Source: Sulfurospirillum sp. UCH001 (GTDB taxonomy: Bacteria; Campylobacterota; Campylobacteria; Campylobacterales; Sulfurospirillaceae). From it: a DNA stretch of 64,000 bases. The notes under the pieces are model-generated. The model was not told where the DNA came from, made no database searches, and saw only the letters and a program-made list of their open reading frames with translations. Of the stretch, positions 7,291 to 60,433 are shown piece by piece. The position numbers and the translations under genes were made by a program. The stretch is taken from the NCBI RefSeq assembly GCF_001548035.1, contig NZ_AP014723.1:744001-808000 (forward strand). The letters run 5' to 3'. The stretch's first letter is position 1. Every line of letters begins with the position of its first letter.

Positions 7291-8130
7291 ATGCATCCAG
7301 TTATGATTATCTTTGAATTAGCGTTACTCGTTATTGGTGCTCTTTTTTTAGTGCGTTCTCTTACTCCCATCAAGCGTTTGATTCTTGAACTTCCAGACGG
7401 AAATTTGAAAAAACGTTGGAAAGTTTTAAGTGTTCTTATCCTCTTTTTTATCATCTGTTATTTTGTTTTTGGATATAACCTTTGGCTTATGCGTGAAGAA
7501 CTGAGTCTTCTTTCGATTGTTGTTTCCGTTATGCTTCTTTTAGAGGGTATATTTGCTTATGTCGTAGGACAGCTCGCGCTACAAACAACAAATGATGTAA
7601 AAGATATTGCGATTTTACAACATGAAAGTATCACTGATGCACTAACAGGGCTCAAAAATAGACGTTATTTTGATCAGAGAATTTGTGAAGAAGTAGCCCT
7701 CTCAAAACGGTATAAACTTCCTTTAACGTTGATACTACTGGATGTTGATTATTTTAAAAAAATCAACGATACGTATGGGCATACTGTTGGTGATGAAGTG
7801 CTGACAAACCTATCTAAACTTGTATTGGAAGTTGTGCGCGATAGCGATATCGTTGCACGTTATGGTGGCGAAGAGATTGCGATCATTACACCAAATACGA
7901 GTAAAGCGGAAGCTGAACTTTTAGCAGAAAGATTGCGTGGAAAAGTTGAAAAAACAACGGTTGCAATGGTTGGGGCAACACAAGAAATTGTTCAAGTTAC
8001 CGTCAGTTTAGGTATTTGTTCTCTAAGCCCTGTCATTACTGACAAAGAAGCTCTTTTAGAAGAGTCGGATCAAGCGCTTTATTTAGCGAAAAAATATGGA
8101 AGAAATAGGGTGGTTGTGAGTAATTGGTAA
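7291..8130 (+). CDS. Membrane-bound diguanylate cyclase (GGDEF domain)
   Basis: A 279-residue protein with three predicted membrane segments in the first 110 residues (around 5-21, 45-68 and 75-100) followed by a GGDEF domain. The cyclase domain begins at SITDALTGLKNRRYFD and carries the active-site variant RYGGEEI (the last residue of GG[DE]EF is Ile). An RxxD allosteric inhibition site (RDSD) lies just upstream, so product feedback is expected. It probably makes c-di-GMP in response to a membrane-sensed signal; no known ligand-binding domain is visible. It is transcribed alone and followed by a hairpin shared with the convergent lipoprotein gene. Confidence 0.9.
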   Translation: MHPVMIIFELALLVIGALFLVRSLTPIKRLILELPDGNLKKRWKVLSVLILFFIICYFVFGYNLWLMREELSLLSIVVSVMLLLEGIFAYVVGQLALQTTNDVKDIAILQHESITDALTGLKNRRYFDQRICEEVALSKRYKLPLTLILLDVDYFKKINDTYGHTVGDEVLTNLSKLVLEVVRDSDIVARYGGEEIAIITPNTSKAEAELLAERLRGKVEKTTVAMVGATQEIVQVTVSLGICSLSPVITDKEALLEESDQALYLAKKYGRNRVVVSNW

Positions 8131-8136
8131 GAGAGG

Positions 8137-8160
8137 AGGGAAGAGAATCTCTCTTCCCTT
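8137..8160. terminator. Bidirectional hairpin between convergent genes
   Basis: A ten-base-pair perfect inverted repeat (AGGGAAGAGA / TCTCTTCCCT) with a three-base loop, followed by a short T-rich run on the + strand. It sits exactly between the stop codons of the diguanylate cyclase (+) and the lipoprotein (-), as expected for a shared terminator. Confidence 0.65.
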
Positions 8161-8165
8161 TAGTG

Positions 8166-8732
8166 TTACATACGTGTTAAACGTGCGACGATTTGATCGA
8201 TACTATCTGCAAAGAGTGTGTATAAGAAAGGTTCTAAATCTTTAGAACTGTAAGATGGAGCAATCCATTTACTGCCTTTTTGTCTAAAGTTTTGTGTAAT
8301 AACTTCATCACCTTTACGTACAACAACTTCGATTTCAATTTCACCTTTGAGATTTGCATCAAAGTTTTTATCATTGTAAACAATCTCAATGTCTTTGATC
8401 GCAACTTCAACCACTAAATTTGCTTCATTTGTTGACGCATTGGTGTTAAAGCCAGCGAGATTAAGGGCATAGCCCAACCCTTCAGTATATTTTTCAGCAA
8501 AGTTTTCATTGCTGTAGAAGTAGATTGTGTTGGTACTTTTTTGATCAACATAACCAATAATATTCTTCTTCGCACGTAAGTCTTTTACGGTTCGTAAATA
8601 GACGATTTTCTTATCACGTGAGAGTGGTCCTTGGTACTCTGCTTTGTAAGATTCTAAGTTCAGTGCTTCATTTTTGTAGGTACAACCACTGAATAACAAC
8701 AGTGCCATAGCTACGAAAAAGAGATGTTTCAT
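8166..8732 (-). CDS. Outer-membrane or periplasmic lipoprotein, YajG-like
   Basis: A 188-residue predicted lipoprotein: positively charged start, hydrophobic stretch and lipobox LFSGC, with the modified cysteine at residue 16. The mature part alternates short beta strands and resembles the YajG/LpoB-like group of small lipoproteins, but I recognise it only weakly. A ribosome binding site (GAGGAG) precedes the ATG. It is monocistronic and divergent from nadK. Its function is not known from the sequence. Confidence 0.7.
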   Translation of the reverse strand: MKHLFFVAMALLLFSGCTYKNEALNLESYKAEYQGPLSRDKKIVYLRTVKDLRAKKNIIGYVDQKSTNTIYFYSNENFAEKYTEGLGYALNLAGFNTNASTNEANLVVEVAIKDIEIVYNDKNFDANLKGEIEIEVVVRKGDEVITQNFRQKGSKWIAPSYSSKDLEPFLYTLFADSIDQIVARLTRM

Positions 8733-8832
8733 TGTAGTGCTCCTCGTATTTTAACCTCTTTAGAAGGTCTGTCATATCGGCGAATTATAGCATAAACACT
8801 GATTAATAAAAGACACGCTAGAATGAGTTATC

Positions 8833-9711
8833 ATGAAAATAACCAATCATACTCAAAAATTAAAGACTATTTCGACAGTGGGACTTGTCAGCAAGCCCAA
8901 TGATGGCACACTGTGTGGCTATGTGCATGAGATTGAAGCTGCACTGAGCAAACACAATGTCAAACTGTTGATAGAAGAGAAAAGTGCCCAAATATTGGGA
9001 TGTGGTCAAGGTGTAAATTTTGATCAAATGTGCAAAGAGAGCGATTTTCTGATCTCTCTTGGTGGTGATGGTACACTGATCTCACTGTGTCGTAGAAGCT
9101 TGATGTACCATAAGCCTGTTCTTGGCATCCATGCCGGACAATTAGGCTTTTTAACCGATATTCAAACGGATGAGATTAGCCATTTTATTGAAGATCTTTT
9201 TATTGGAAATTACCGTATTGATACACGAATGATGCTAGAAGTCTCATTACATGTCAATGGAAAAGTTGAAAAAGTAGTTGCATTTAATGATGTCGTTTTA
9301 TCGCGTTCAAAAATTTCTCATATGAGCAATATTAAAGCGTATGTTGATGGTCAACTTTTTAATTCTTATTATGGCGATGGGCTTATCATCTCAACCCCAA
9401 CGGGTTCAACAGCCTACAATCTCTCCGCTGGTGGTCCTGTCGTTTTTCCCCTCACTGAAGCACTTATCTTAACACCGATTTGTCCACACTCCTTAACACA
9501 ACGACCTTTGGTTTTGCCTGTTGATTTTGAGGTTTCCTTTGAAAGTGATGGGGATACCGTGATTGTTGTTGATGGGCAAGATACCTATACCATGAATGAA
9601 GTTGAACGTGTAAGTGTATGCATCGCGGAACAAGGTGCTGAGCTTATTCATAGTTTAGATCGTGATTATTTTGAAATTTTGAAAAAGAAATTGCATTGGG
9701 GGCATGTGTGA
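8833..9711 (+). CDS. nadK: NAD kinase
   Basis: ATP- or polyphosphate-dependent NAD kinase that makes NADP in the cytoplasm; 292 residues, normal length. Diagnostic motifs are SLGGDGTLISL around residues 76-86, the HAGQLGFLTD loop, and the TPTGSTAYNLSAGGP motif of the substrate site. It heads the series nadK-recN that I recall in the same order in C. jejuni. The stop codon overlaps the likely GTG start of recN by four bases (GTGA). Confidence 0.96.
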   Translation: MKITNHTQKLKTISTVGLVSKPNDGTLCGYVHEIEAALSKHNVKLLIEEKSAQILGCGQGVNFDQMCKESDFLISLGGDGTLISLCRRSLMYHKPVLGIHAGQLGFLTDIQTDEISHFIEDLFIGNYRIDTRMMLEVSLHVNGKVEKVVAFNDVVLSRSKISHMSNIKAYVDGQLFNSYYGDGLIISTPTGSTAYNLSAGGPVVFPLTEALILTPICPHSLTQRPLVLPVDFEVSFESDGDTVIVVDGQDTYTMNEVERVSVCIAEQGAELIHSLDRDYFEILKKKLHWGHV

Positions 9712-11249
9712 TAGAGCGATTGTTAATAAAGAACCATCTCTCGTTTGCTGAGTGTGATATCGAGTTTAAAAAAGGTTTAGTCGTTTTTAGCGGTCCAAGT
9801 GGTGCTGGTAAATCTGTCTTAATGCAAGGCTTACTCTCCTTGTTTGGTTATGGAGAAGTTCATGCAGATGTTATAGAAGCTATTGTTGGGCAAAACTTAG
9901 GATTAGAAGCATTTGGATTTGAAGAGGAAGAACCGAATGTTTTTAAATTTCTTCGAGCAAAAAATGCGCGTTATTTTATCAATACACAAGCCGTTTCTAA
10001 AAAAGGAATGGTAGAACTCTCTCGAACATTTATCAATTATCTCTCCATGAAAGATAACAGTGAATTTGAGAACAATCGTCTTTTAGGCTTGCTGGATGGC
10101 GTTTGTGCAAGCAAAGAGCCTGCTCATACAGATAATGTGAGTAAATTTGAAACATTATTTAACGAATATAAAAACGTTAAAGAAGAGCTAGATCGCATTG
10201 AAGCAGAAGAGAAAAAAATTGAAGACCTTAAAGAGTTTGCACGTTTTGAAATAGCCAAAATCGATGAGGTCTCACCCAAGATCGGTGAAGATGAAGAATT
10301 GGTAAGTTTTAAAAAATCACTCTCTAAAAAAGAGAAGATCGAACAAGCTATGCAAAAAGCAAGTACGGTCTTTGAGCTTGAAGGCAGTGTTATAGAGGTT
10401 TTAAATCTTATCGAAGCCGATAGTAGCTTTTTTGATGCGTGCATGAATGAATTAAGACTCGTTTTTGAAAAACAAAATGAAACCTTAGAAGCACTCGAAG
10501 AGATTGATGTCGAATCTCTTTTAGATCGTATCGAAAAGATTGCACAGCTTAAAAAACGGTATGGCTCCATTGAAGAAGCCTTGGAGCACAAACAAAAGCG
10601 CCAAGAAGAACTTGCACGTTATGAAAACATTGCTTTTGAAAAAGCGCAACTTGAAAAAACAGTAGCTAAATATGAGAGCAGTGTCACTGAGCAAAGCCGT
10701 AAAATCAGCCAAGTACGCCAAAAATATCTCCCTTTATTGGAAGAGCGATTAAACGATTATCTTGCACAACTCTATATGCCAACACTTCATTTACGACTAG
10801 AAGAGGGTACCTTGTGCGAGTTAGGATTTGATGTTTTACACGTCAATCTTGGAAAAGTAGATCTTAAAAAAATAAGCTCAGGTGAGTACAACCGAGTACG
10901 CTTAGCTTTCCTTGCAACTCACAATGAATTTTTACTCTCAAAGGGTGGTGTTTTAATCTTAGATGAGATTGATGCAAATTTGAGTGGAAAAGAGTCCATG
11001 AGTGTGGCAAATGTTTTAAAAACGCTTTCAACTAAGTATCAAATCTTTGCAATCTCTCATCAGCCACAACTCTCTTCTGTGGCGAACCAACACTTTTTAG
11101 TGACCAAAGATGCTTCCCATGCAAGCCACGTTGTACCACTTCAAAACGAAGAACGCATTGTTGAGTTGGCCCGAATGGTCAGTGGTGAAAATGTCAGTGA
11201 AGAGGCAATTGTTTTTGCAAAATCCCTTTTAGAGAGTGCAAATTTGTAA
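9708..11249 (+). CDS. recN: DNA repair protein RecN
   Basis: SMC-like ATPase of recombinational double-strand break repair. The N-terminal half has Walker A ([11 protein letters not shown]) near residue 30, the middle (about 140-340) is acidic/basic-rich and predicted coiled coil, and the C-terminal half has the ABC signature [12 protein letters not shown] and Walker [13 protein letters not shown]. With about 513 residues it is somewhat shorter than the E. coli protein, as in other Campylobacterota. I prefer the GTG at 9708, which overlaps nadK's stop by four bases and follows a GGGGG run at good spacing; an in-frame ATG at 9696 would add four residues. Confidence 0.93.
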
Positions 11250-49718: not shown

Positions 49719-51332
49719 ATGACTCTTGCAAAACAACTCCTTACGATGTTAGCATCGGCTATTGTAGGCGCATCTATTATTTTTAGCATTAGCCTTGTAA
49801 AAATGGATCAAATCTATATAACAACAACGACATGTCAAACAAATACATTACCAAGTGTTTTATTGCTAGATGATATGCAAAGAGGGTTTTATCGTATTAG
49901 GCTTTTATTGTGGGAACATATAGGAACGGAAGTAAGTAATAAAGATGAAATGAAAGTCTTAGACGATAGGTATCGTACTTACCGCGGAGAGTTTGAAAAT
50001 AATTTAAAGATGTATGCCTCATTTGCCACTGATGCAAAAGATCAAGAAATTTATGAGAAAGAAAAACAACTCTACGCTATTTACATTACAATGGCAGATA
50101 CTGTTTTACAGATGTCACGAGAAGATAAAAAAAGTGAAGCCAAAGAGTTTATGCTTAAAAATCGAAAAATGTCACGTAATCTAACGGATACTATTGACGA
50201 ACAAATGACATACAACAAAAAACTCTCCGAAGATAACGCTTTAGTGGCACACGAAACCAAACAAATGGCACGTGTTGAAATGACCATTATTATAGCTTTG
50301 GTAATACTTTTAACGCTAATACTTAGTTATCTCATCCGCAAGAACATTATGGATGGCGTACACTTGATACGAGACAGTATCACAAACTTTGTACGCACTA
50401 AAGAGCTTCGCTTTAGAATTACCTATGCTAAACAAAATGAAATTAAAGAGATTGTAGATAGCTTTAATGACTTGGTCAATACCTTAGAGCATACCATTAC
50501 TGATGCTAAAACATCTTCCAATGAAAATGCATCGGTTTCACATGAACTCAGTACCACCAGTATGCAAATAGGAAGAAATGCAGAACAAAGCTCAAGTATT
50601 GTTGAAAATACCATTCATGAGATTGATACGATTAAATCCTTTGTACAACAGACAGCTAAACTCTCAGAAGGAATGAAAGAAGAGATCACCGATGCAGGTA
50701 AAAAACTAAACCATGCACAAGATGAAATCATTGCATTACGTAATGAAGTGGATCAAGCCAGTGAAGCTGAAACTGCCCTTGCAGGACAGTTAGAACAGAT
50801 GAGTAAAGATGCAGAACAAGTTAAACAGATTCTTACGGTGATCTCAGATATTGCAGATCAAACAAACTTACTTGCACTTAATGCTGCTATTGAAGCAGCA
50901 AGGGCGGGAGAACATGGACGAGGATTTGCAGTGGTTGCTGATGAAGTACGAAAACTAGCAGAGCGAACACAAACTTCTCTTACTGAGATTAATGCTACGA
51001 TCAATATCATTGTTCAATCGATTGTGAACTCCTCAGATCAAATGAATAGAAATGCTAAAAACATTCAAAGACTCTCCACTGTTTCAAGTACTGTTGAGAG
51101 TACTATTGTAGGAACAACGAAAGTCATGCACAATAGTATTGCCTCTGTCACGCAAAGTGCACAAAACTCATTAAAGATTGCACACGATACCGATAAAATT
51201 GTAGAGATGGTTTCTAACATTAATACCTTAACCTCTCAAAATGCCAGAAGTGTTGAGGAAATCGCTGCTGCTGCCGATCATCTCTCTAGGTTGTCAGAAA
51301 CATTAAACAGTAAGCTTCAACAGTTTAGATAA
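49719..51332 (+). CDS. Methyl-accepting chemotaxis protein
   Basis: A 537-residue chemoreceptor. Membrane segments near 8-28 and 188-206 enclose a helical periplasmic domain of the four-helix-bundle type (4HB_MCP), followed by HAMP and the long coiled-coil signalling domain. The hairpin tip that contacts CheA/CheW is intact ([20 protein letters not shown] followed by [18 protein letters not shown]). No C-terminal CheR-tether pentapeptide is seen. AAAGGA precedes the ATG at 49719. The ligand is unknown; it stands upstream of the nitrite module and has its own transcription unit. Confidence 0.95.
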
Positions 51333-52252: not shown

Positions 52253-52891
52253 ATGGATAGAATTAGAAACATTTCATGTTTTTCAAAACTTACGGATGCG
52301 CAACTTGAAAAGCTGAAGAAGATTTCTGTGATTAAAAAGTATAAAGCAAAAGAAATTCTCTTCTATGAAGGTGATGAGCCTACATATCTTTATGTGTTGC
52401 TTCAAGGTACTTTAAAAGTTTATAAAACAAACCACAAAGGACAACAGATCTTTTTGCACCAATTTTACCCAGGTGGGTTGGTTGCGGAACTCGCTAATTT
52501 TGAAAATATTCCTTATCCTGCAACGGCTGAGTTTATGAGTGACAGTGAAGTGTTGCGCATTGATTATCAAGCACTTGAGAAAGATTTTTTCAAAAACCCC
52601 GAAATCTCTTTTGAGATTATCAAAAGCCTCATTGCAAAGCATAAAATCCTTATTGATGTTATTCAAAAAGAGGTAATTCTTACTGCTGACGCTAAGGTGG
52701 CTAAGTTTATTTTAGAAAACGAAGATCTTTTTAAGAAACTGAAAAATACTCAGGTCGCTTCTATCTTGAACTTGACTCCCGAAACACTGTCTCGTACCCT
52801 TTCAAAATTCAAATCTTCAGGGATTATTGACCTCGATGAGAAACATCATATTCGTGTTCTTAATCCTCAAAAACTAGAAGAAGTACTATAA
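52253..52891 (+). CDS. Crp/Fnr family transcriptional regulator (Nss-like), first copy
   Basis: A 212-residue regulator with an N-terminal cyclic-nucleotide-binding-type beta roll (KEILFYEGDEPTYLYVLLQG) and a C-terminal winged helix whose recognition helix contains TPETLSRTLSKFKSSG. It lacks the N-terminal cysteine cluster of oxygen-sensing Fnr. In Wolinella and C. jejuni, cluster-free members (NssA-C, NssR) activate nrf and other nitrogen-stress genes in response to nitrate, nitric oxide or nitrous oxide. Its location directly upstream of nrfHA and the operator at 52908 make it the best candidate nrf activator. Confidence 0.87.
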   Translation: MDRIRNISCFSKLTDAQLEKLKKISVIKKYKAKEILFYEGDEPTYLYVLLQGTLKVYKTNHKGQQIFLHQFYPGGLVAELANFENIPYPATAEFMSDSEVLRIDYQALEKDFFKNPEISFEIIKSLIAKHKILIDVIQKEVILTADAKVAKFILENEDLFKKLKNTQVASILNLTPETLSRTLSKFKSSGIIDLDEKHHIRVLNPQKLEEVL

Positions 52892-52907: not shown

Positions 52908-52923
52908 CTTGACATAAGTCAAG
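52908..52923. promoter_or_regulatory. Crp/Fnr-type operator upstream of nrfH
   Basis: CTTGAC-ATAA-GTCAAG, a perfect six-base dyad with a four-base spacer, has the layout of an Fnr/Nss box (TTGAT-N4-ATCAA; NssR TTAAC-N4-GTTAA). Its centre at 52915.5 is about 41.5 bases before the start predicted from the TACAAT at 52945, the classical class II activation position. Confidence 0.7.
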
Positions 52924-53108: not shown

Positions 53109-53642
53109 GTGAAAAATAGTAATTTCCTAAAGTACGCGGCACTCTTGGTGTTTGTGGTTGCCATAGGCTTTTTCGCTTATATGGTACACGCATCCAAAGC
53201 GTTGTCGTATCTCTCCAGCGATCCTAAAGCCTGTATAAACTGTCACGTCATGAATACGCAATATGCGACATGGCAACACAGTTCACATGCTGAACGGGCT
53301 GGCTGTATCGATTGTCACTTACCACGTGATAATATGGTTAATAAGTACATAGCAAAAGCACGAGATGGTTATAACCATAGTGTTGCTTTTACATTCAATA
53401 CGTACAAAAATGCCATTAAGATTAGTGATGATGGAGCGAGAAGAGTACAGGAGAATTGTATTTCTTGTCATGCGAGTTTAACCTCTCAAATGGCAATAAA
53501 TAGTGACAAAGACCACAAGTATGATGATCCAAGCGTTGCTACTGGTAGACGTTGTTGGGAGTGTCATAAAGGTGTACCACACGGTAAAGTCAGAGGTCTT
53601 ACAACGACACCAAATAACTTGGGTGTCAAAGAAGTTAAGTAA
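53109..53642 (+). CDS. nrfH: Cytochrome c nitrite reductase, membrane quinol-dehydrogenase subunit NrfH
   Basis: A NapC/NirT-family tetrahaem cytochrome that oxidises menaquinol and passes electrons to NrfA on the periplasmic side. One N-terminal membrane anchor (KYAALLVFVVAIGFFAYMVH) is followed by four CXXCH haem sites (CINCH, CIDCH, CISCH, CWECH). The start is GTG at 53109 with AAAGGAGG directly upstream, giving 177 residues, the length I remember for Wolinella NrfH. An in-frame TTG at 53040 would add 23 hydrophobic residues. nrfA follows after eight bases. Confidence 0.95.
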   Translation: MKNSNFLKYAALLVFVVAIGFFAYMVHASKALSYLSSDPKACINCHVMNTQYATWQHSSHAERAGCIDCHLPRDNMVNKYIAKARDGYNHSVAFTFNTYKNAIKISDDGARRVQENCISCHASLTSQMAINSDKDHKYDDPSVATGRRCWECHKGVPHGKVRGLTTTPNNLGVKEVK

Positions 53643-53650
53643 AAGGAGAA

Positions 53651-55186
53651 ATGATGATGAAGTTCAAATTGTTGCTTGTAGGTTCTTTGGTCGCCATCGG
53701 TGCAATGGCGTTACTTGCAAACAATATTAATGACAAAGAAAAACAAAGAGTAGAACTTGCTAAAGCTCCAAGCCAAGCTGGCATTGAGGGTAAAGCAAAA
53801 AGCGAAGAGTGGGCAAAATACTATCCAAGACAGTTTGATTCTTGGAAAAAAACAAAAGAGAGTGATGATATCGTCGATATGCTCGATAAAAAACCTTACC
53901 TAGCAGTTGCTTGGGCAGGGTATCCATTTTCTAAAGACTATAATGCTCCACGTGGTCACTACTATGCAGTACAAGACAATGTTAACACATTAAGAACAGG
54001 TGCTCCAGTTGATGCAAAAACAGGTCCTCTTCCAACAGCATGTTGGACGTGTAAATCTCCAGACGTTCCTCGTTTGATCGAAGAAGATGGTGAGTTAGAA
54101 TACTATACAGGTAAATGGGCAAAATACGGTTCACAAGTGGTTAACTCTGTTGGTTGTGCAACATGTCACGATGACAAAACGGCTCAACTTTCTGTTCGTG
54201 TTCCACACTTAAATCGTGGTTTACAAGCAGCTGGACTTAAAACATTTGAAGAGTCAACGCACCAAGAGAAACGCTCTTTGGTTTGTGCTCAATGTCACGT
54301 AGAGTACTACTTCAAAAAGACAGAGTGGAAAGATGACAAAGGTGCTGATAAAACAGCGATGGTGGTCACCCTTCCATATGCTAAAGGTTTAACTGTAGAG
54401 GCAATGGAGCAATACTACGATGAGATTAATTTCTCTGACTGGACACACAGTATCTCAAAAACACCTATGCTTAAAGCACAACATCCTGATTATGAGTTCT
54501 GGAAAACAGGTATCCATGGTCAAAAAGGCGTTTCATGTGCTGATTGTCATATGCCATACACTCAAGAAGGTGCTGTAAAATACTCAGACCACCAAATCCA
54601 AAGTCCTCTTAAAACAATGGATAAAAGCTGTATGAACTGCCATAGAGAAAGTGAAGAGAAACTTAAAGGTATCGTTCACCAAAAAATGGAGAGAAAAGAC
54701 TTTATGATGGACATCGCATTTGATAACATTGGTAAAGCTCACCTAGAAACTGGTAAAGCAATGGAAGCAGGCGCAAGTGATGAAGAGCTTAAAGAAGTTC
54801 GTAAGCTTATCCGTCATGCACAATGGAGAGGCGATATGGCTATTGCTGGTCATGGTAACTTCTTCCACGCGCCAGAAGAGACATTGCGTATGCTAGGTTC
54901 TGCAAACGACAAAGCACAACAAGCGCGTATTAAACTTGTAAGCATCCTTGCAAAACACGGTGTCATGGATTATATGGCTCCAGATTTTGATAAAAAAGAC
55001 AAGGCTCAAAAGCTTGCAAAACTTGATATGCCAGCACTTACTGCTGAAAAACTAAAATTTAAAGAGACACTTGAAAAAGAATGGAAAAAAGAGGCTGCTG
55101 CTAAAGGCAGACTTGCTCCAAATTCGGTAGCTCTTGATCCAGCAGTAGATAGCAAATCTTCTTACTTCGATAAAAATAAAAAGTAA
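53651..55186 (+). CDS. nrfA: Cytochrome c nitrite reductase, catalytic subunit NrfA
   Basis: Periplasmic pentahaem enzyme that reduces nitrite to ammonium with six electrons and can also reduce NO, hydroxylamine and sulfite. 511 residues with a signal anchor in the first 25. The active-site haem is bound by the special CWTCK near residue 131; four further haems are bound by CATCH, CAQCH, CADCH and CMNCH. Other catalytic-site segments include KYGSQVVNSVGC and KTGIHGQKGVSC. AAAAGGAGAA precedes three consecutive ATG codons. The CXXCK haem needs the dedicated lyase NrfI encoded next. Confidence 0.98.
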   Translation: MMMKFKLLLVGSLVAIGAMALLANNINDKEKQRVELAKAPSQAGIEGKAKSEEWAKYYPRQFDSWKKTKESDDIVDMLDKKPYLAVAWAGYPFSKDYNAPRGHYYAVQDNVNTLRTGAPVDAKTGPLPTACWTCKSPDVPRLIEEDGELEYYTGKWAKYGSQVVNSVGCATCHDDKTAQLSVRVPHLNRGLQAAGLKTFEESTHQEKRSLVCAQCHVEYYFKKTEWKDDKGADKTAMVVTLPYAKGLTVEAMEQYYDEINFSDWTHSISKTPMLKAQHPDYEFWKTGIHGQKGVSCADCHMPYTQEGAVKYSDHQIQSPLKTMDKSCMNCHRESEEKLKGIVHQKMERKDFMMDIAFDNIGKAHLETGKAMEAGASDEELKEVRKLIRHAQWRGDMAIAGHGNFFHAPEETLRMLGSANDKAQQARIKLVSILAKHGVMDYMAPDFDKKDKAQKLAKLDMPALTAEKLKFKETLEKEWKKEAAAKGRLAPNSVALDPAVDSKSSYFDKNKK

Positions 55187-55290: not shown

Positions 55291-57672
55291 GTGCTATTCA
55301 AAATTCTTAGCTCTTACAAAACGATGCTCTTTTTGCTCTTTTTTTTAGCGCTAGGTGCAGCCATCGCAACCTTTGTTGAGAACGATTTTGGCACAACCGT
55401 TGCGCGCCATTATGTGTATAACGCCATTTGGTACGAAATGCTTTTAAGCTTTGGCGCGCTCAATATTCTCCTTGTTCTTTACAAAACACAGATGATAAAA
55501 CATCTTGCAAAATTTACATTTCACGCAGCATTTATTCTTATTCTCATTGGCTCTGGGCTGACACGATATTTGGGCGTAGATGGTGTCATGAAAATACGCG
55601 AAGGTGCAAGCACCAACATTATTTTTTCAACTGAAAAAAATGCAGAGATTACGCTTCCTTTCTCTGTTTTTCTTAAAGACTTTGAATTAGAACGCTACTA
55701 TGGTAGTCGTGCACCTTCCGCCTACAACAGCGATGTGCGTATAGTTGATGGCAATACGACATTGGATGCGCAAATCTATATGAACCATACGCTAACCTAC
55801 AAAGGGTATAAATTTTTTCAAACGTTTTATGATCCTGATGAAAAAGGCACCATTCTTTCTGTTACAAAAGATCCTGGAGTAGAGGTGACGTATGTGGGGT
55901 ATGCACTACTGTTTTTAGGGCTTATACTCAATCTCTTTGATTCAAAATCACGTTTTAGAAAACTCATTTTACAAGTCAAACATAGCTCTTTAGTGGTGCT
56001 GTTACTTTTCATGGTACAAGCGCCTCTTTTTTCCCAAAGCGAGTACGTGCAAAACTACTTAGACGAGCACCAAAGTAAAAGTAAAGAAGTGAGCAATGCC
56101 TTTGGCAAATTGGTTGTTCAATCACGTATGGGGCGTATGAAGCCTTTTGATACGTTAAGCCAAGAAGTTTTATATAAACTCAGTGGTAAAAATAGTCTTT
56201 ATGGCATGGATGCGATGCAAATCTCTTTAGGCATGCTTTCACATCCAACGGTGTGGAAAAACCTTCCGATGATTCAAACGAAAACACCAAGACTTAGAGA
56301 ATTTATAGGCATTCCAAAAGAGCAAAAACTCGCTTCTTTTGAAGATTTTTTTGAAGGACATCGCTATAAGATAGACGCGGAACTTCAAAAAGCGCTTGCG
56401 ATGAAACCAAGCCAACGTGGAACATTTGAAAATGACCTTATTAAAGTCGATGAACGCTTAAGCATCGCCTTTATGCTCTATCAAGGTGTACTCTTTAAAA
56501 TCTTTCCATTACCAAACGATGCCAATCACACATGGTTAGCCTTCGAGCAGATGTTTGCACAACTTGAAGGGGTCGAAGCTGAAAAACTACAAGAGAGTTC
56601 AACGGCTTTTATTGGAGCACTCTTTGAGCGTAATTATGACAAAGCACTCTCTTATGTTAACGTATTTTCAGAGTTTCAAACGAAGTATGGCACTGATATT
56701 ATGCCTACAAAAACGCATATTGAAGTTGAAATACTCTTTAATAAACTGATGATTTTTGAGCGATTGACATTGGTGTATGTTCTTTTGGGACTTGTTCTTT
56801 TAGTGGTCGCTTTTGGACGTGTCTTTACCCCTCAAAAATTTCCAGCTAAAATCGATAAAGTCCTTTTTGTGATTGTCGCAGCATTATTTGTTATACATAC
56901 CTGTGGGCTAGCTCTTAGGTGGTATGTGAGTGGTCATGCTCCACTTAGCGATACATATGAGTCGATCGTTTATATCGCATGGTCGTGTCTGCTCTTTTGT
57001 ATGCTCTTTTTACGCCGTTCGCTCTTTGCACTCTCAGGCTCAGTAATGATGGCAGGCATCTTTATGTTTGTGGCACATCTTGGGCATATTGACCCAGAAA
57101 TCACCAATCTTGTGCCTGTGCTAAAATCATTTTGGCTCTCTGTGCATGTTTCTATCATCACGGCAAGTTATGGCTTTTTGGCGCTCGGCTGTGCATTGGG
57201 ATTTTTTACGCTGATTTTATTCGCACTCAAGCCATCTTCGCAAACCATCTCTACCATCAAACATTTAACTACTATCAATGAAATTACCCTTATTTTAGGG
57301 CTTTCTCTTCTCGTCATTGGTAACTTTTTGGGTGGCGTTTGGGCGAATGAGTCATGGGGACGTTACTGGGGGTGGGACCCTAAAGAGACATGGGCATATA
57401 TCTCAATTTTGGTGTATACGATTATTTTACACGTACGACTTGTTCCAAAATTTTATTCACATTATCTCTTTGCAGTCCTTTCTCTCTTAGGATTTGCTTC
57501 TATTTTGATGACCTATTTTGGGGTCAATTTTTATCTTGCTGGTATGCATTCTTATGCTACTGGCGATCCTGTACCTATTCCTGGTTGGGTATATGTTTGT
57601 ACTTTTGTGGTAGCATTGCTGATTATAATATCGTATAAAAATAGACTTCTAACGAAGTCTTCTGATGCGTAA
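55291..57672 (+). CDS. nrfI: CcsBA-type cytochrome c haem lyase, NrfI-like
   Basis: A 793-residue fused System II cytochrome c synthase. The N-terminal ResB/CcsB part has membrane spans at about 9-28, 44-62, 69-88 and 198-215; the C-terminal CcsA part has several spans and the haem-handling WWD motif WGRYWGWDPKETWA near residue 690. Wolinella NrfI has the same architecture (about 900 residues) and attaches haem to the CXXCK motif of NrfA. The GTG start at 55291 follows AAGGAAAA. Position directly after nrfA favours NrfI over the general CcsBA. Confidence 0.9.
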   Translation: MLFKILSSYKTMLFLLFFLALGAAIATFVENDFGTTVARHYVYNAIWYEMLLSFGALNILLVLYKTQMIKHLAKFTFHAAFILILIGSGLTRYLGVDGVMKIREGASTNIIFSTEKNAEITLPFSVFLKDFELERYYGSRAPSAYNSDVRIVDGNTTLDAQIYMNHTLTYKGYKFFQTFYDPDEKGTILSVTKDPGVEVTYVGYALLFLGLILNLFDSKSRFRKLILQVKHSSLVVLLLFMVQAPLFSQSEYVQNYLDEHQSKSKEVSNAFGKLVVQSRMGRMKPFDTLSQEVLYKLSGKNSLYGMDAMQISLGMLSHPTVWKNLPMIQTKTPRLREFIGIPKEQKLASFEDFFEGHRYKIDAELQKALAMKPSQRGTFENDLIKVDERLSIAFMLYQGVLFKIFPLPNDANHTWLAFEQMFAQLEGVEAEKLQESSTAFIGALFERNYDKALSYVNVFSEFQTKYGTDIMPTKTHIEVEILFNKLMIFERLTLVYVLLGLVLLVVAFGRVFTPQKFPAKIDKVLFVIVAALFVIHTCGLALRWYVSGHAPLSDTYESIVYIAWSCLLFCMLFLRRSLFALSGSVMMAGIFMFVAHLGHIDPEITNLVPVLKSFWLSVHVSIITASYGFLALGCALGFFTLILFALKPSSQTISTIKHLTTINEITLILGLSLLVIGNFLGGVWANESWGRYWGWDPKETWAYISILVYTIILHVRLVPKFYSHYLFAVLSLLGFASILMTYFGVNFYLAGMHSYATGDPVPIPGWVYVCTFVVALLIIISYKNRLLTKSSDA

Positions 57673-57709: not shown

Positions 57710-58360
57710 ATGAATAAAATGAAATTAGTAGCTCTTTCGTTAGCACTTATTGGTAACCTCCATGCAGGCGATGTATTTGAGGGAACTGTTGTTGACACTT
57801 TACAAGGTGGCGGTTATACGTATTTGCAAATTGATGATACTAAGAAAAAATACTGGGTAGCTGTTGAAGGTACAAAAGTAGAGAAAGGAACAGAAGTTCG
57901 TTTTACAGAAGAATTACGTGCGAAAGATTTTGAAAGTAAGGCACTCAACCGTAAATTTGATGAAATTGTGTTTGCTTCCAATTTACAATACCGCACAAAT
58001 GTACCTGAAAAAGGAAATCTATCGCTTATTACAGAGCAGGTTAAAGAGTCTCCTTACAAACAAAAAGATACAATGAGTATTAAAGAGGCATGGGAAAACC
58101 GTGTCAGTTTAAAAGATAAAACCATTGCGATTCGTGGTAAAGTTGTTAAGGCATCTCCAAATATTCTTGGACGTAACTGGGTTCACATCCAAGATGGTAC
58201 AGGCGAAGGCACTGAAGTAGGACGTATTGTATTTACTTCAAGTGAACTTCCAAAAGTAGGAGATATTGTCACCGCTAAAGGTGTTGTCAATGTGGACAAA
58301 GATTTCGGTTCAGGGTATTCTTACAAAATTATTATTGAAAATGCTACATTTAGCAAATAA
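57710..58360 (+). CDS. nrfJ: NrfJ-related periplasmic OB-fold protein
   Basis: A 216-residue protein with a signal peptide (LVALSLALIGNLHAG). Two similar halves follow: an N-terminal GGGYTYLQIDDTKKKYWVAV and a C-terminal GRNWVHIQDGTGEG, both like OB-fold nucleic-acid-binding-type domains found in periplasmic proteins. Wolinella nrfHAIJ ends in a comparable gene whose deletion has, as far as I remember, little effect on nitrite respiration. Function unknown. AAAGGAAAA precedes the ATG; another ATG lies three codons on. Confidence 0.8.
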   Translation: MNKMKLVALSLALIGNLHAGDVFEGTVVDTLQGGGYTYLQIDDTKKKYWVAVEGTKVEKGTEVRFTEELRAKDFESKALNRKFDEIVFASNLQYRTNVPEKGNLSLITEQVKESPYKQKDTMSIKEAWENRVSLKDKTIAIRGKVVKASPNILGRNWVHIQDGTGEGTEVGRIVFTSSELPKVGDIVTAKGVVNVDKDFGSGYSYKIIIENATFSK

Positions 58361-58376
58361 AATATAAAGAGGTTTG

Positions 58377-59039
58377 ATGGCAAACGATCCTTTAACATTA
58401 GTTTCTTCATTGCCACTGTTTGATTCACTTCAACGTGAAGACATCGAAAAAATAGCCTCATTTTGCAGCGTGCGTCATCATAAAGCGGGTGACGTACTCT
58501 TTTATGAAAAAGACACCAAAGACGCGATTTACTACATTATTCAAGGTTCGGTCAAATTTTATAAGGTTGATCGTTTTGATAATGAAATTTTCCTCTATAA
58601 ACTCTACTCAAACTCACTTATTTTTAACGTCTCCAAATTGATTGATAGCTTTTTTATCAGCTGTTATGCCAATGCGGAATTTTTAGAGGATAGCACAATT
58701 TTATGCATTCAAAGTCAGCCATTTCGCGAGATGATTTATGCAAATCACCGTTTGATGACAAAGATTTTAGAAGAGTCATTTAAGATGATACAACAGATGC
58801 AGTGTATCATCAGTCGTGACGTCGTGTTTGATGGAACGGCAAAAGTGGCTCATATGCTTGTTAATGAACTTGATACATTTAATAAACTCAAAAAACATGA
58901 AATTGCGTATATGTTGCACATTCAACCTGAAACACTTTCACGTATTTTAAATAAACTGACTCGTAATGGAACGATTGAGATTGAAAAAAACAGCGTTGTG
59001 ATCTTGAATATTCAAGAGCTCAAAGATATTTATGAATAA
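58377..59039 (+). CDS. Crp/Fnr family transcriptional regulator (Nss-like), second copy
   Basis: A 220-residue regulator with the beta-roll sensory domain (GDVLFYEKDTKDAIYYIIQG) and a winged helix whose recognition helix contains QPETLSRILNKLTRNG, nearly the same as in the copy at 52253. There is no Fnr-type iron-sulfur motif, though a few scattered cysteines occur. It follows nrfJ after 16 bases with AAAGAGG before the ATG at 58377, so it is probably part of the nrf transcript and could form a feedback loop. Ligand unknown; nitrate, NO or N2O are candidates from the Nss family. Confidence 0.85.
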   Translation: MANDPLTLVSSLPLFDSLQREDIEKIASFCSVRHHKAGDVLFYEKDTKDAIYYIIQGSVKFYKVDRFDNEIFLYKLYSNSLIFNVSKLIDSFFISCYANAEFLEDSTILCIQSQPFREMIYANHRLMTKILEESFKMIQQMQCIISRDVVFDGTAKVAHMLVNELDTFNKLKKHEIAYMLHIQPETLSRILNKLTRNGTIEIEKNSVVILNIQELKDIYE

Positions 59040-59059: not shown

Positions 59060-60433
59060 ATGAAACCAACCGCTATTAGTGCAAAGATGCGCCTCGCTGG
59101 GGGATTGTTGTCGTTTGTCATTATATTTATCATCTCTTTAACCGTTATGATGAATCAAATGAGTAAAAAAGACTCTTACATCATTAACATTGCGGGTAAG
59201 CAGCGTATGCTCTCTCAAAAGATGAGCAAGGAAGTTTTCTTCATCGTACACCGACATACGAATGACTTTCGTGAACTCAATACGGCTGTGAACCTTTTTG
59301 AAAATAGCCTCAAAGATCTTTTGTATGGCAATGATGCCAAAGGCATTTATGCTCCACAAAATGAGCGTATTAAAAGCAAACTTGAAGAGGTCATGAGCCT
59401 TTGGTTACCATTTCGTGAAGAGATTGAAGCTTTAAAATCTGGCATTGAAGCAGTACGCCCTGATATGGAAGTCTTAACACCTCGCATCGAGAAGTTGTTG
59501 GTACTCTCCGATAATGTTGTTCAACGTATGGTTGCTGCAAATTTAAGTAATGTGCATATCGACCTTTCTGGTCGTCAACGTATGCTTTCTCAACGTATGG
59601 GTCTCTATGTTAACCGTTATTTGCGCACATCAAACGCACAGGATTTACTTGTTTTTGCAGATGCGAAGGCTTTGTATAACAAAACGATAAAAAGCTTTTT
59701 AGATGATCCTGCAGTAAAGAGCTCTCCTGAGGTATATGCTATTGTTAAAGAGACTAATGCCTACTGGGAAGAGTACATCCTTTATTTAGACCATATCATG
59801 AAAGAAGAGAGCGAAATCAATAAGCACTTGGCATTTGTGTATGAAAAAAACGTCCAACTGCTTAATGCGATGGATGAAGCCGTCTGGCTCTATACCGATC
59901 ACAGTGAAGCTAAAAACGATATGTTCCTCAAATTCCAATATATCGCGCTTTTGGTTGGACTTATCATCATTGTCTATGCGTTTGTGATGACCAAAGAGAT
60001 TATCGAGCATTTAGAAGGATTTGTTCAAAAAGCCAAAGAGCTTGCTCATGGTGACATCAGTAGTTTTTCTGCCAAGCCTGTCACACTCTCTGAAAACAGT
60101 GAAGATGAACTCAAAGAAGCTTCTACACACATCTCACTCTTTGTTCAAAAAGTCAATCTTGCGATGAAAGACTCAGAAGATGCCCTTAAAAAAGCTGAAA
60201 ATGCAGTTTCTCAGCTGCAACAACTTGCTCTTGAAGTTGAAGATGTTATCGAAGATATGGGCATTGATGAGAATGAAAAGAAGACATTTGATAGAAATGT
60301 CAATGCCACGGAAGATATCGCCATTCAATCGGCTGAAAATCTCATTCATGTCAACCGTATGCTTCAGAAATTGAAAAAAAGTCTCAATTCGATGGTTGAG
60401 AGTAATCAATTGGAAGAAAAAAAAGGCGAGTAA
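59060..60433 (+). CDS. Tandem PilJ/NarX-like sensory membrane protein without output domain
   Basis: A 457-residue protein: membrane segment near 15-32, a periplasmic region with two PilJ-type repeats whose P-box-like motifs are AGKQRMLSQKM near residue 46 and SGRQRMLSQRM near 174, a second membrane segment near 296-313, a HAMP-like linker, and a C-terminal helical, coiled-coil-prone region of about 110 residues. No histidine kinase, methyl-accepting or GGDEF domain follows. P-boxes bind nitrate and nitrite in NarX/NarQ and related receptors. It follows the second Crp/Fnr gene after 20 bases and closes the nitrite cluster. Confidence 0.85.
   Translation: MKPTAISAKMRLAGGLLSFVIIFIISLTVMMNQMSKKDSYIINIAGKQRMLSQKMSKEVFFIVHRHTNDFRELNTAVNLFENSLKDLLYGNDAKGIYAPQNERIKSKLEEVMSLWLPFREEIEALKSGIEAVRPDMEVLTPRIEKLLVLSDNVVQRMVAANLSNVHIDLSGRQRMLSQRMGLYVNRYLRTSNAQDLLVFADAKALYNKTIKSFLDDPAVKSSPEVYAIVKETNAYWEEYILYLDHIMKEESEINKHLAFVYEKNVQLLNAMDEAVWLYTDHSEAKNDMFLKFQYIALLVGLIIIVYAFVMTKEIIEHLEGFVQKAKELAHGDISSFSAKPVTLSENSEDELKEASTHISLFVQKVNLAMKDSEDALKKAENAVSQLQQLALEVEDVIEDMGIDENEKKTFDRNVNATEDIAIQSAENLIHVNRMLQKLKKSLNSMVESNQLEEKKGE

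Follow-up and report, generated by a model that had tools for sequence, protein, structure and literature searches.

A P-box membrane receptor without a known signalling domain lies behind one type of Crp/Fnr regulator near nitrogen-oxide respiration genes and suggests kinase-free nitrate sensing in Campylobacterales

The window analysed here is a stretch of 64,000 nucleotides from the complete, 2.6-Mb genome of Sulfurospirillum sp. UCH001. On its forward strand, an exact Nss/Dnr-type box (TTGACATAAGTCAA, 52909–52922; consensus from PMC11539149) lies upstream of nrfH (53109–53642), for which relatives and inspection point to a likely GTG start at 53109, the open reading frame being listed from 53040. 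It is followed on the same strand by nrfA, encoding the ammonia-forming cytochrome c nitrite reductase (53651–55186), by nrfI, encoding a CcsBA-type haem lyase (55291–57672), and by a gene for an nrfJ-like OB-fold protein (57710–58360), the last gene before a pair that is the subject of this analysis. The first member of the pair encodes a Crp/Fnr regulator of 220 amino acids (58377–59039, forward strand) and ends 20 bp upstream of the second, which begins with ATG and encodes a membrane receptor of 457 amino acids (59060–60433, forward strand). Another Crp/Fnr regulator, of the Nss type and with no adjoining receptor, is encoded on the forward strand at 52253–52891, and a gene for a 4HB-type methyl-accepting chemotaxis protein (MCP) is found three genes upstream of nrfH (49719–51332). 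The receptor gene is real and has full-length orthologues, 76–95% identical, in 17 of the 17 further genomes of the genus that were sampled; the receptor genes of S. diekertiae and S. cavolei are 88% and 80% identical to it, respectively. No other gene of this Sulfurospirillum genome carries a PilJ domain.

The original prediction of two PilJ repeats with nitrate-type P-boxes, placed between two membrane spans directly behind a Crp/Fnr gene, was confirmed by Pfam, an AlphaFold model and inspection. The hydrophobic spans seen in sequence and model place TM1 at about residues 12–31 and TM2 at about residues 292–312, with the tandem PilJ periplasmic region (residues 32–291) between them and a helical cytoplasmic region (residues 313–457) behind. 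Pfam matched PilJ (PF13675; E=1.6e-27; 96.3 bits against a gathering threshold of 26.6) in two stretches and found no other credible domain. All 61 aligned relatives matched PilJ as well, and neither they nor the receptor contained, in the same kind of scan, a histidine-kinase DHp or ATPase domain or any other kinase, MCP, GGDEF or known output or enzymatic domain. The MCP signalling domain PF00015, absent from the receptor, was detected by the same scan in the MCP at 49719–51332. The AlphaFold model is all-helical with a mean pLDDT of 82. Its closest solved fold is the tandem domain of Pseudomonas aeruginosa PilJ (VIA Z 18.4), followed by the nitrate receptor McpN, which matches the first PilJ repeat (Z 18.2, 2.0 A), and by a NarQ fragment (Z about 15).

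The first P-box (GKQRMLSQ, G46 and R49 included; residues 46–53; 59195–59218, forward strand) and the second (GRQRMLSQ, with G171 and R174; residues 171–178; 59570–59593, forward strand), which lies in the second PilJ repeat, resemble known nitrate sites. McpN binds nitrate on its dimer axis through G58, A59, R61 and M62 (PMC6381276), and the segment I42-N-I-A-G46-K-Q-R49-M50 of the receptor aligns with these contacts. With its G-x-x-R nitrate site, it also fits the consensus of the nitrate-sensing kinases NarX and NarQ (PMC8199190). Outside a clade linked to nos genes that is described below, 76 of 80 receptors have G46 and the same number have R49, and the extended box I-N-x-A-G-x-x-R-M is kept in nearly all of them. 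Judged from these residues, the receptor would bind nitrate. The second repeat is dispensable, as short receptors of about 330 amino acids contain the first repeat alone and have no P-box 2. Three long receptors from one genus (L196, L199 and L200) have lost P-box 1 and kept P-box 2 (GKQRMLTQ, GKQRTLSQ and GKQRMLSQ, respectively), and these may bind their ligand at the second repeat instead.

A GxxR motif is no proof of nitrate binding, because the ligand-binding domain of P. aeruginosa PilJ is likewise a tandem of PilJ domains with a GxxR box, yet it shows no binding of nitrate or nitrite (PMC6381276). Since this protein is also the top fold match, the receptor could be responding to another ligand or to the state of the membrane rather than to nitrate or nitrite. 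We consider this unlikely. The I-N-x-A-G-x-x-R-M box fits the McpN and NarX/NarQ consensus better than that of PilJ, which lacks the N and reads I-G-H-A-G, and the receptor genes adjoin nap, nrf and nir.

The prediction that the receptor has no output domain stands as far as known domains are concerned, but the cytoplasmic part, of about 145 amino acids, carries a conserved signature. In its last helix, the motif E418-D-I-A-I422-Q-S424-A-E426-N-L428 (60311–60343, forward strand) is conserved and a candidate contact surface. Residues E418, D419, I422, S424, E426 and L428 are as conserved as the P-box, with E418 invariant. The resulting pattern, E-D-x-x-I-x-S-x-E-x-L, is common to long, short and nos-linked receptors and is kept even where the P-box has been lost. 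The cytoplasmic part of the AlphaFold model is of low confidence (pLDDT about 40–70). The HAMP-like linker that had been predicted received no Pfam HAMP hit, and distant similarity to the HAMP regions of MCPs speaks faintly in its favour. A degenerate MCP tail was rejected as an explanation of the region, the receptors having no MCP tip. Four longer open reading frames that matched the cytoplasmic profile (L189, L190, L195 and L208) proved to be normal MCPs whose match was confined to the HAMP-like part.

The neighbourhood of the receptor gene was surveyed across the Campylobacterales sampled, and the pair was found in many families of Campylobacterota. In a first survey, all 68 loci that could be assessed had a Crp gene on the same strand just before the receptor gene, with spacings of −32 to +28 bp and most frequently a 4-bp overlap; in all, a Crp/Fnr gene was directly upstream of 93 of 93 receptor genes. 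The surroundings of the pair vary. Its predicted place at the end of the nrf cluster holds in Sulfurospirillum, where it accompanies nrfHAIJ, whereas elsewhere the neighbours are mostly nap (napAGHBFLD in most genomes), nirS-norCB or nosZ, with hao plus nap, unrelated genes and a plasmid as further settings. The plasmid is pSULKU01 of Sulfuricurvum kujiense (Campylobacterota), where the pair stands at the end of a nap operon; it was the sole match of the plasmid searches. Adjacency in all 93 cases across such changing contexts excludes chance. In the surveyed loci no third gene was conserved beside the pair: the neighbours change and the pair stays.

Two other arrangements were seen in these loci. 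One locus (L102, around 8129–10800) contains a Crp–receptor–Crp triple of overlapping genes before norCB-nirS. In addition, a single-PAS protein of about 170 amino acids without an output domain is common at the ends of nap operons, often beside the Crp–receptor pair (for example, L220:5731-6255, L046 and L047), and is possibly another sensor without a known partner.

The upstream gene 58377–59039 encodes a genuine Crp/Fnr protein by two tests: its Pfam hits, cNMP_binding and HTH_Crp_2, are above cut-off, and Foldseek aligned it to Crp structures with E about 1e-15. Neither it nor the receptor carries a histidine kinase or receiver domain in Pfam. Both regulators of the locus had been put forward as partners. 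The adjacent one belongs to the receptor-paired clade and is retained; the one at 52253 was rejected, as its relatives lie outside that clade and have no receptor beside them. A single clade of 103 tips holds the paired Crps; 97 of its tips have a receptor and 6 do not, compared with 0 of 25 Crps outside it that have one.

Receptor and regulator have also evolved together. First, their distance matrices are correlated in a mirror-tree comparison (r=0.79, 94 pairs). Second, NapA served as a control at 37 loci with napA nearby, where the correlation was 0.85 for receptor and Crp, 0.48 for receptor and NapA, and 0.56 for Crp and NapA. Third, the partial correlation of receptor and Crp given NapA at these 37 loci was 0.79, and 0 of 999 permutations reached it. 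Linkage alone would not give such a contrast. Co-evolution and the invariant upstream position together support the functional link between the receptor and a Crp-type regulator that had been proposed from the sequence.

Such a link could also be indirect: the receptor would sense nitrate and govern the same operons through a third component, such as an adaptor, a protease or a second messenger, and Crp would act downstream without contact. This gains some weight because we infer the contact between receptor and Crp, and because the cytoplasmic region is short and modelled with low confidence. It is nevertheless rather unlikely, as no third gene accompanies the pair, the signal of co-evolution is confined to the two partners, and an enzymatic domain is found in none of the 61 members.

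Direct contact between the two proteins would be in keeping with how the paired Crps have changed. At equal overall divergence, column identity in their effector cassette (residues 76–105) is 0.27, against 0.45 in a small reference set of 8 unpaired sequences, and the C-helix is likewise less conserved in the paired Crps. The trend is reversed in the EIFLY strand (0.60 against 0.33) and in the hinge/D region (0.53 against 0.34). Erosion of the cassette alongside constraint on these two parts fits a regulator that no longer has a small-molecule effector and has acquired a surface for a protein. The six receptor-less members of the clade represent about three lineages (L188, L192, L193, L194, L182 and L187) and show that the receptor is not strictly required; some of them (L182 and L187) are still beside nap. 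L166, N170 and R197, which came out of a comparison for Crp residues conserved in paired members alone, are changed in most of them, and within the limits of about three lineages this gives a hint that these positions may mark a lost contact surface.

Several Crp/Fnr regulators of denitrification, such as DNR/NNR, bind their effectors directly. The paired Crp might do the same, for example by sensing NO through a haem pocket, with the receptor having another role in nitrate respiration, for instance as an input to a chemotaxis array or in the control of a transporter. The existence of six clade Crps without a receptor is in line with this idea. We judge it the least likely of the alternatives, because paired Crps conserve the effector cassette less well than unpaired ones do, the receptor lacks an MCP signalling tip and any other known output, and both the co-evolution and the invariant pairing would be left unexplained.

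The probable place of the paired Crp among known regulators comes from Wolinella succinogenes. The Nss regulators of this species, NssA, NssB and NssC, are reportedly the subject of work by Kern and Simon from 2016 (cited in PMC6682613). One of the genomes has, at locus L217, a nosZ interrupted by a transposase-like open reading frame (L217:10522-14425, the insertion at L217:11763-12953), with a receptor-less Crp, probably NssC, directly upstream. W. succinogenes DSM 1740 has an interrupted nosZ of this kind, and the genome is probably that of W. succinogenes. It encodes exactly three Crps: a receptor-paired one beside nap, the receptor-less one immediately ahead of nosZ, and a third close to molybdopterin genes. 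The nap-linked, receptor-paired Crp is probably NssA because of its place among the three, and the identity pattern in PMC11539149 also leads us to infer that it is the published NssA. The paired Crp of the window is 44.5% identical to it and its orthologue, and would thus probably be an NssA orthologue. In the presence of nitrate, the Wolinella NssA upregulates nap, nrf and nos (PMC6682613).

Candidate target sites of such regulators stand before the expected operons. Within 250 bp upstream of the gene, an exact TTGA-N6-TCAA box was found at nrfH in 12 of 13 loci, at napA in 23 of 39 and at nosZ in 12 of 13, where under 0.5 was expected in each case; none was found before norC in 8 loci. These boxes do not single out the paired Crp, because their consensus is also a binding site for the other Nss proteins.

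Collectively, we think it reasonably probable that the receptor and Crp form a phosphorylation-free, two-protein module for nitrate sensing in which direct contact sets DNA binding by Crp. A homodimeric receptor would use G46 and R49 of its first PilJ domain to bind nitrate on the dimer axis, like McpN and NarX/NarQ. The signal would be carried by movement of TM2 and then through the HAMP-like stretch to a hairpin of cytoplasmic helices, the last of which, with the conserved motif E-D-x-x-I-x-S-x-E-x-L, would contact the neighbouring Crp/Fnr regulator. This contact would set the regulator's activity at the TTGA-N6-TCAA boxes upstream of the nrf, nap and related operons. That the receptor probably acts on the NssA-type Crp by direct contact fits both the anatomy and the co-evolution. 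As to the direction of control, a receptor that holds Crp inactive when unliganded is slightly favoured over one that activates it, because receptor-less Crps persist beside nap.

A sister pair is linked to nosZ. Arcobacter-like genomes contain, as a second or only pair, a Crp and a receptor of roughly 315 amino acids with the same layout (L171–L184), and seven genomes carry both kinds. In these receptors R49 is replaced by Lys in 14 of 14 and G46 by Asn in 12 of 14, Pfam recognises nothing credible, and conserved ligands for a metal or haem are not apparent. Of the 14 pairs, 12 lie directly before nosZ (NosZ confirmed). The nos-linked Crps are monophyletic, as are the nos-linked receptors, both with full support. 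A Fisher test of P-box loss against adjacency to nosZ gave p about 1e-9 but is set aside as evidence, since essentially a single clade accounts for the loss and one nosZ-linked pair (L080) keeps its P-box. Replacement of the P-box Arg, even by Lys, makes NarX and NarQ insensitive to ligand (PMC8199190), so the nos-linked receptors should not see nitrate. They may sense something else, perhaps N2O, which their location at nosZ makes an attractive candidate. We know of no receptor for N2O.

A receptor without a known signalling domain, standing behind one type of Crp near genes of nitrogen-oxide respiration, suggests that nitrate can be sensed without a kinase. Campylobacterota respire nitrate widely, and no orthologue of NarP, FNR or ArcA has been reported in them (PMC6682613). 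How NssA learns of nitrate is unexplained in the literature searched, and the receptor–Crp pair provides a concrete, testable answer. No description of the pair was found in the open-access literature searched, in which many subscription papers are missing. Because no Pfam family matches the nos-linked receptors, domain annotation does not reveal the system. If the proposal is true, P-box receptors, known from kinases and chemoreceptors, extend to the direct control of a Crp/Fnr protein. More tentatively, the two kinds of pair may represent a new class of transmembrane signalling, in which output-less receptors switch dedicated Crp/Fnr proteins by contact and have diversified in what they sense: nitrate at nap, nrf and nir, and something else, possibly N2O, at nosZ. 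The sister pair makes cellular sensing of this greenhouse gas directly testable.

Compared to known systems, the pair combines familiar parts in a different way. First, like NarX and NarQ, the receptor has two membrane spans around a PilJ-type periplasmic domain with a P-box in which the G and R of the nitrate site are kept; unlike them, it has no kinase, DHp, GAF or HATPase domain, and its partner is a Crp/Fnr protein rather than a response regulator. Second, its first PilJ repeat resembles McpN of P. aeruginosa in fold and pocket residues, but the receptor has no MCP signalling domain, is tandem in its long form and is genetically tied to a transcription factor. Third, P. aeruginosa PilJ, the chemoreceptor of type IV pili, shares the tandem fold and is the best match over the whole domain, but it has an MCP output and fails to bind nitrate or nitrite (PMC6381276). 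Fourth, the paired Crp is most likely the orthologue of NssA among the W. succinogenes regulators NssA/B/C, nap-linked and with the same TTGA-N6-TCAA box, whereas the literature searched makes Nss proteins sensors themselves or leaves their input open and mentions no receptor partner. Fifth, the DnrST/DrpAB system of Thermus thermophilus also responds to nitrate without NarX-NarL, the proposed nitrate sensors DrpA and DrpB acting on dnrST (PMC6282519). DrpA differs in being a separate periplasmic protein with no recognised nitrate-binding motif, and that system has no single P-box transmembrane receptor beside its Crp. Finally, NtcA–PipX sets a precedent for the control of a Crp-family regulator through protein contact; PipX is soluble, unlike the receptor of this pair, which sits in the membrane.
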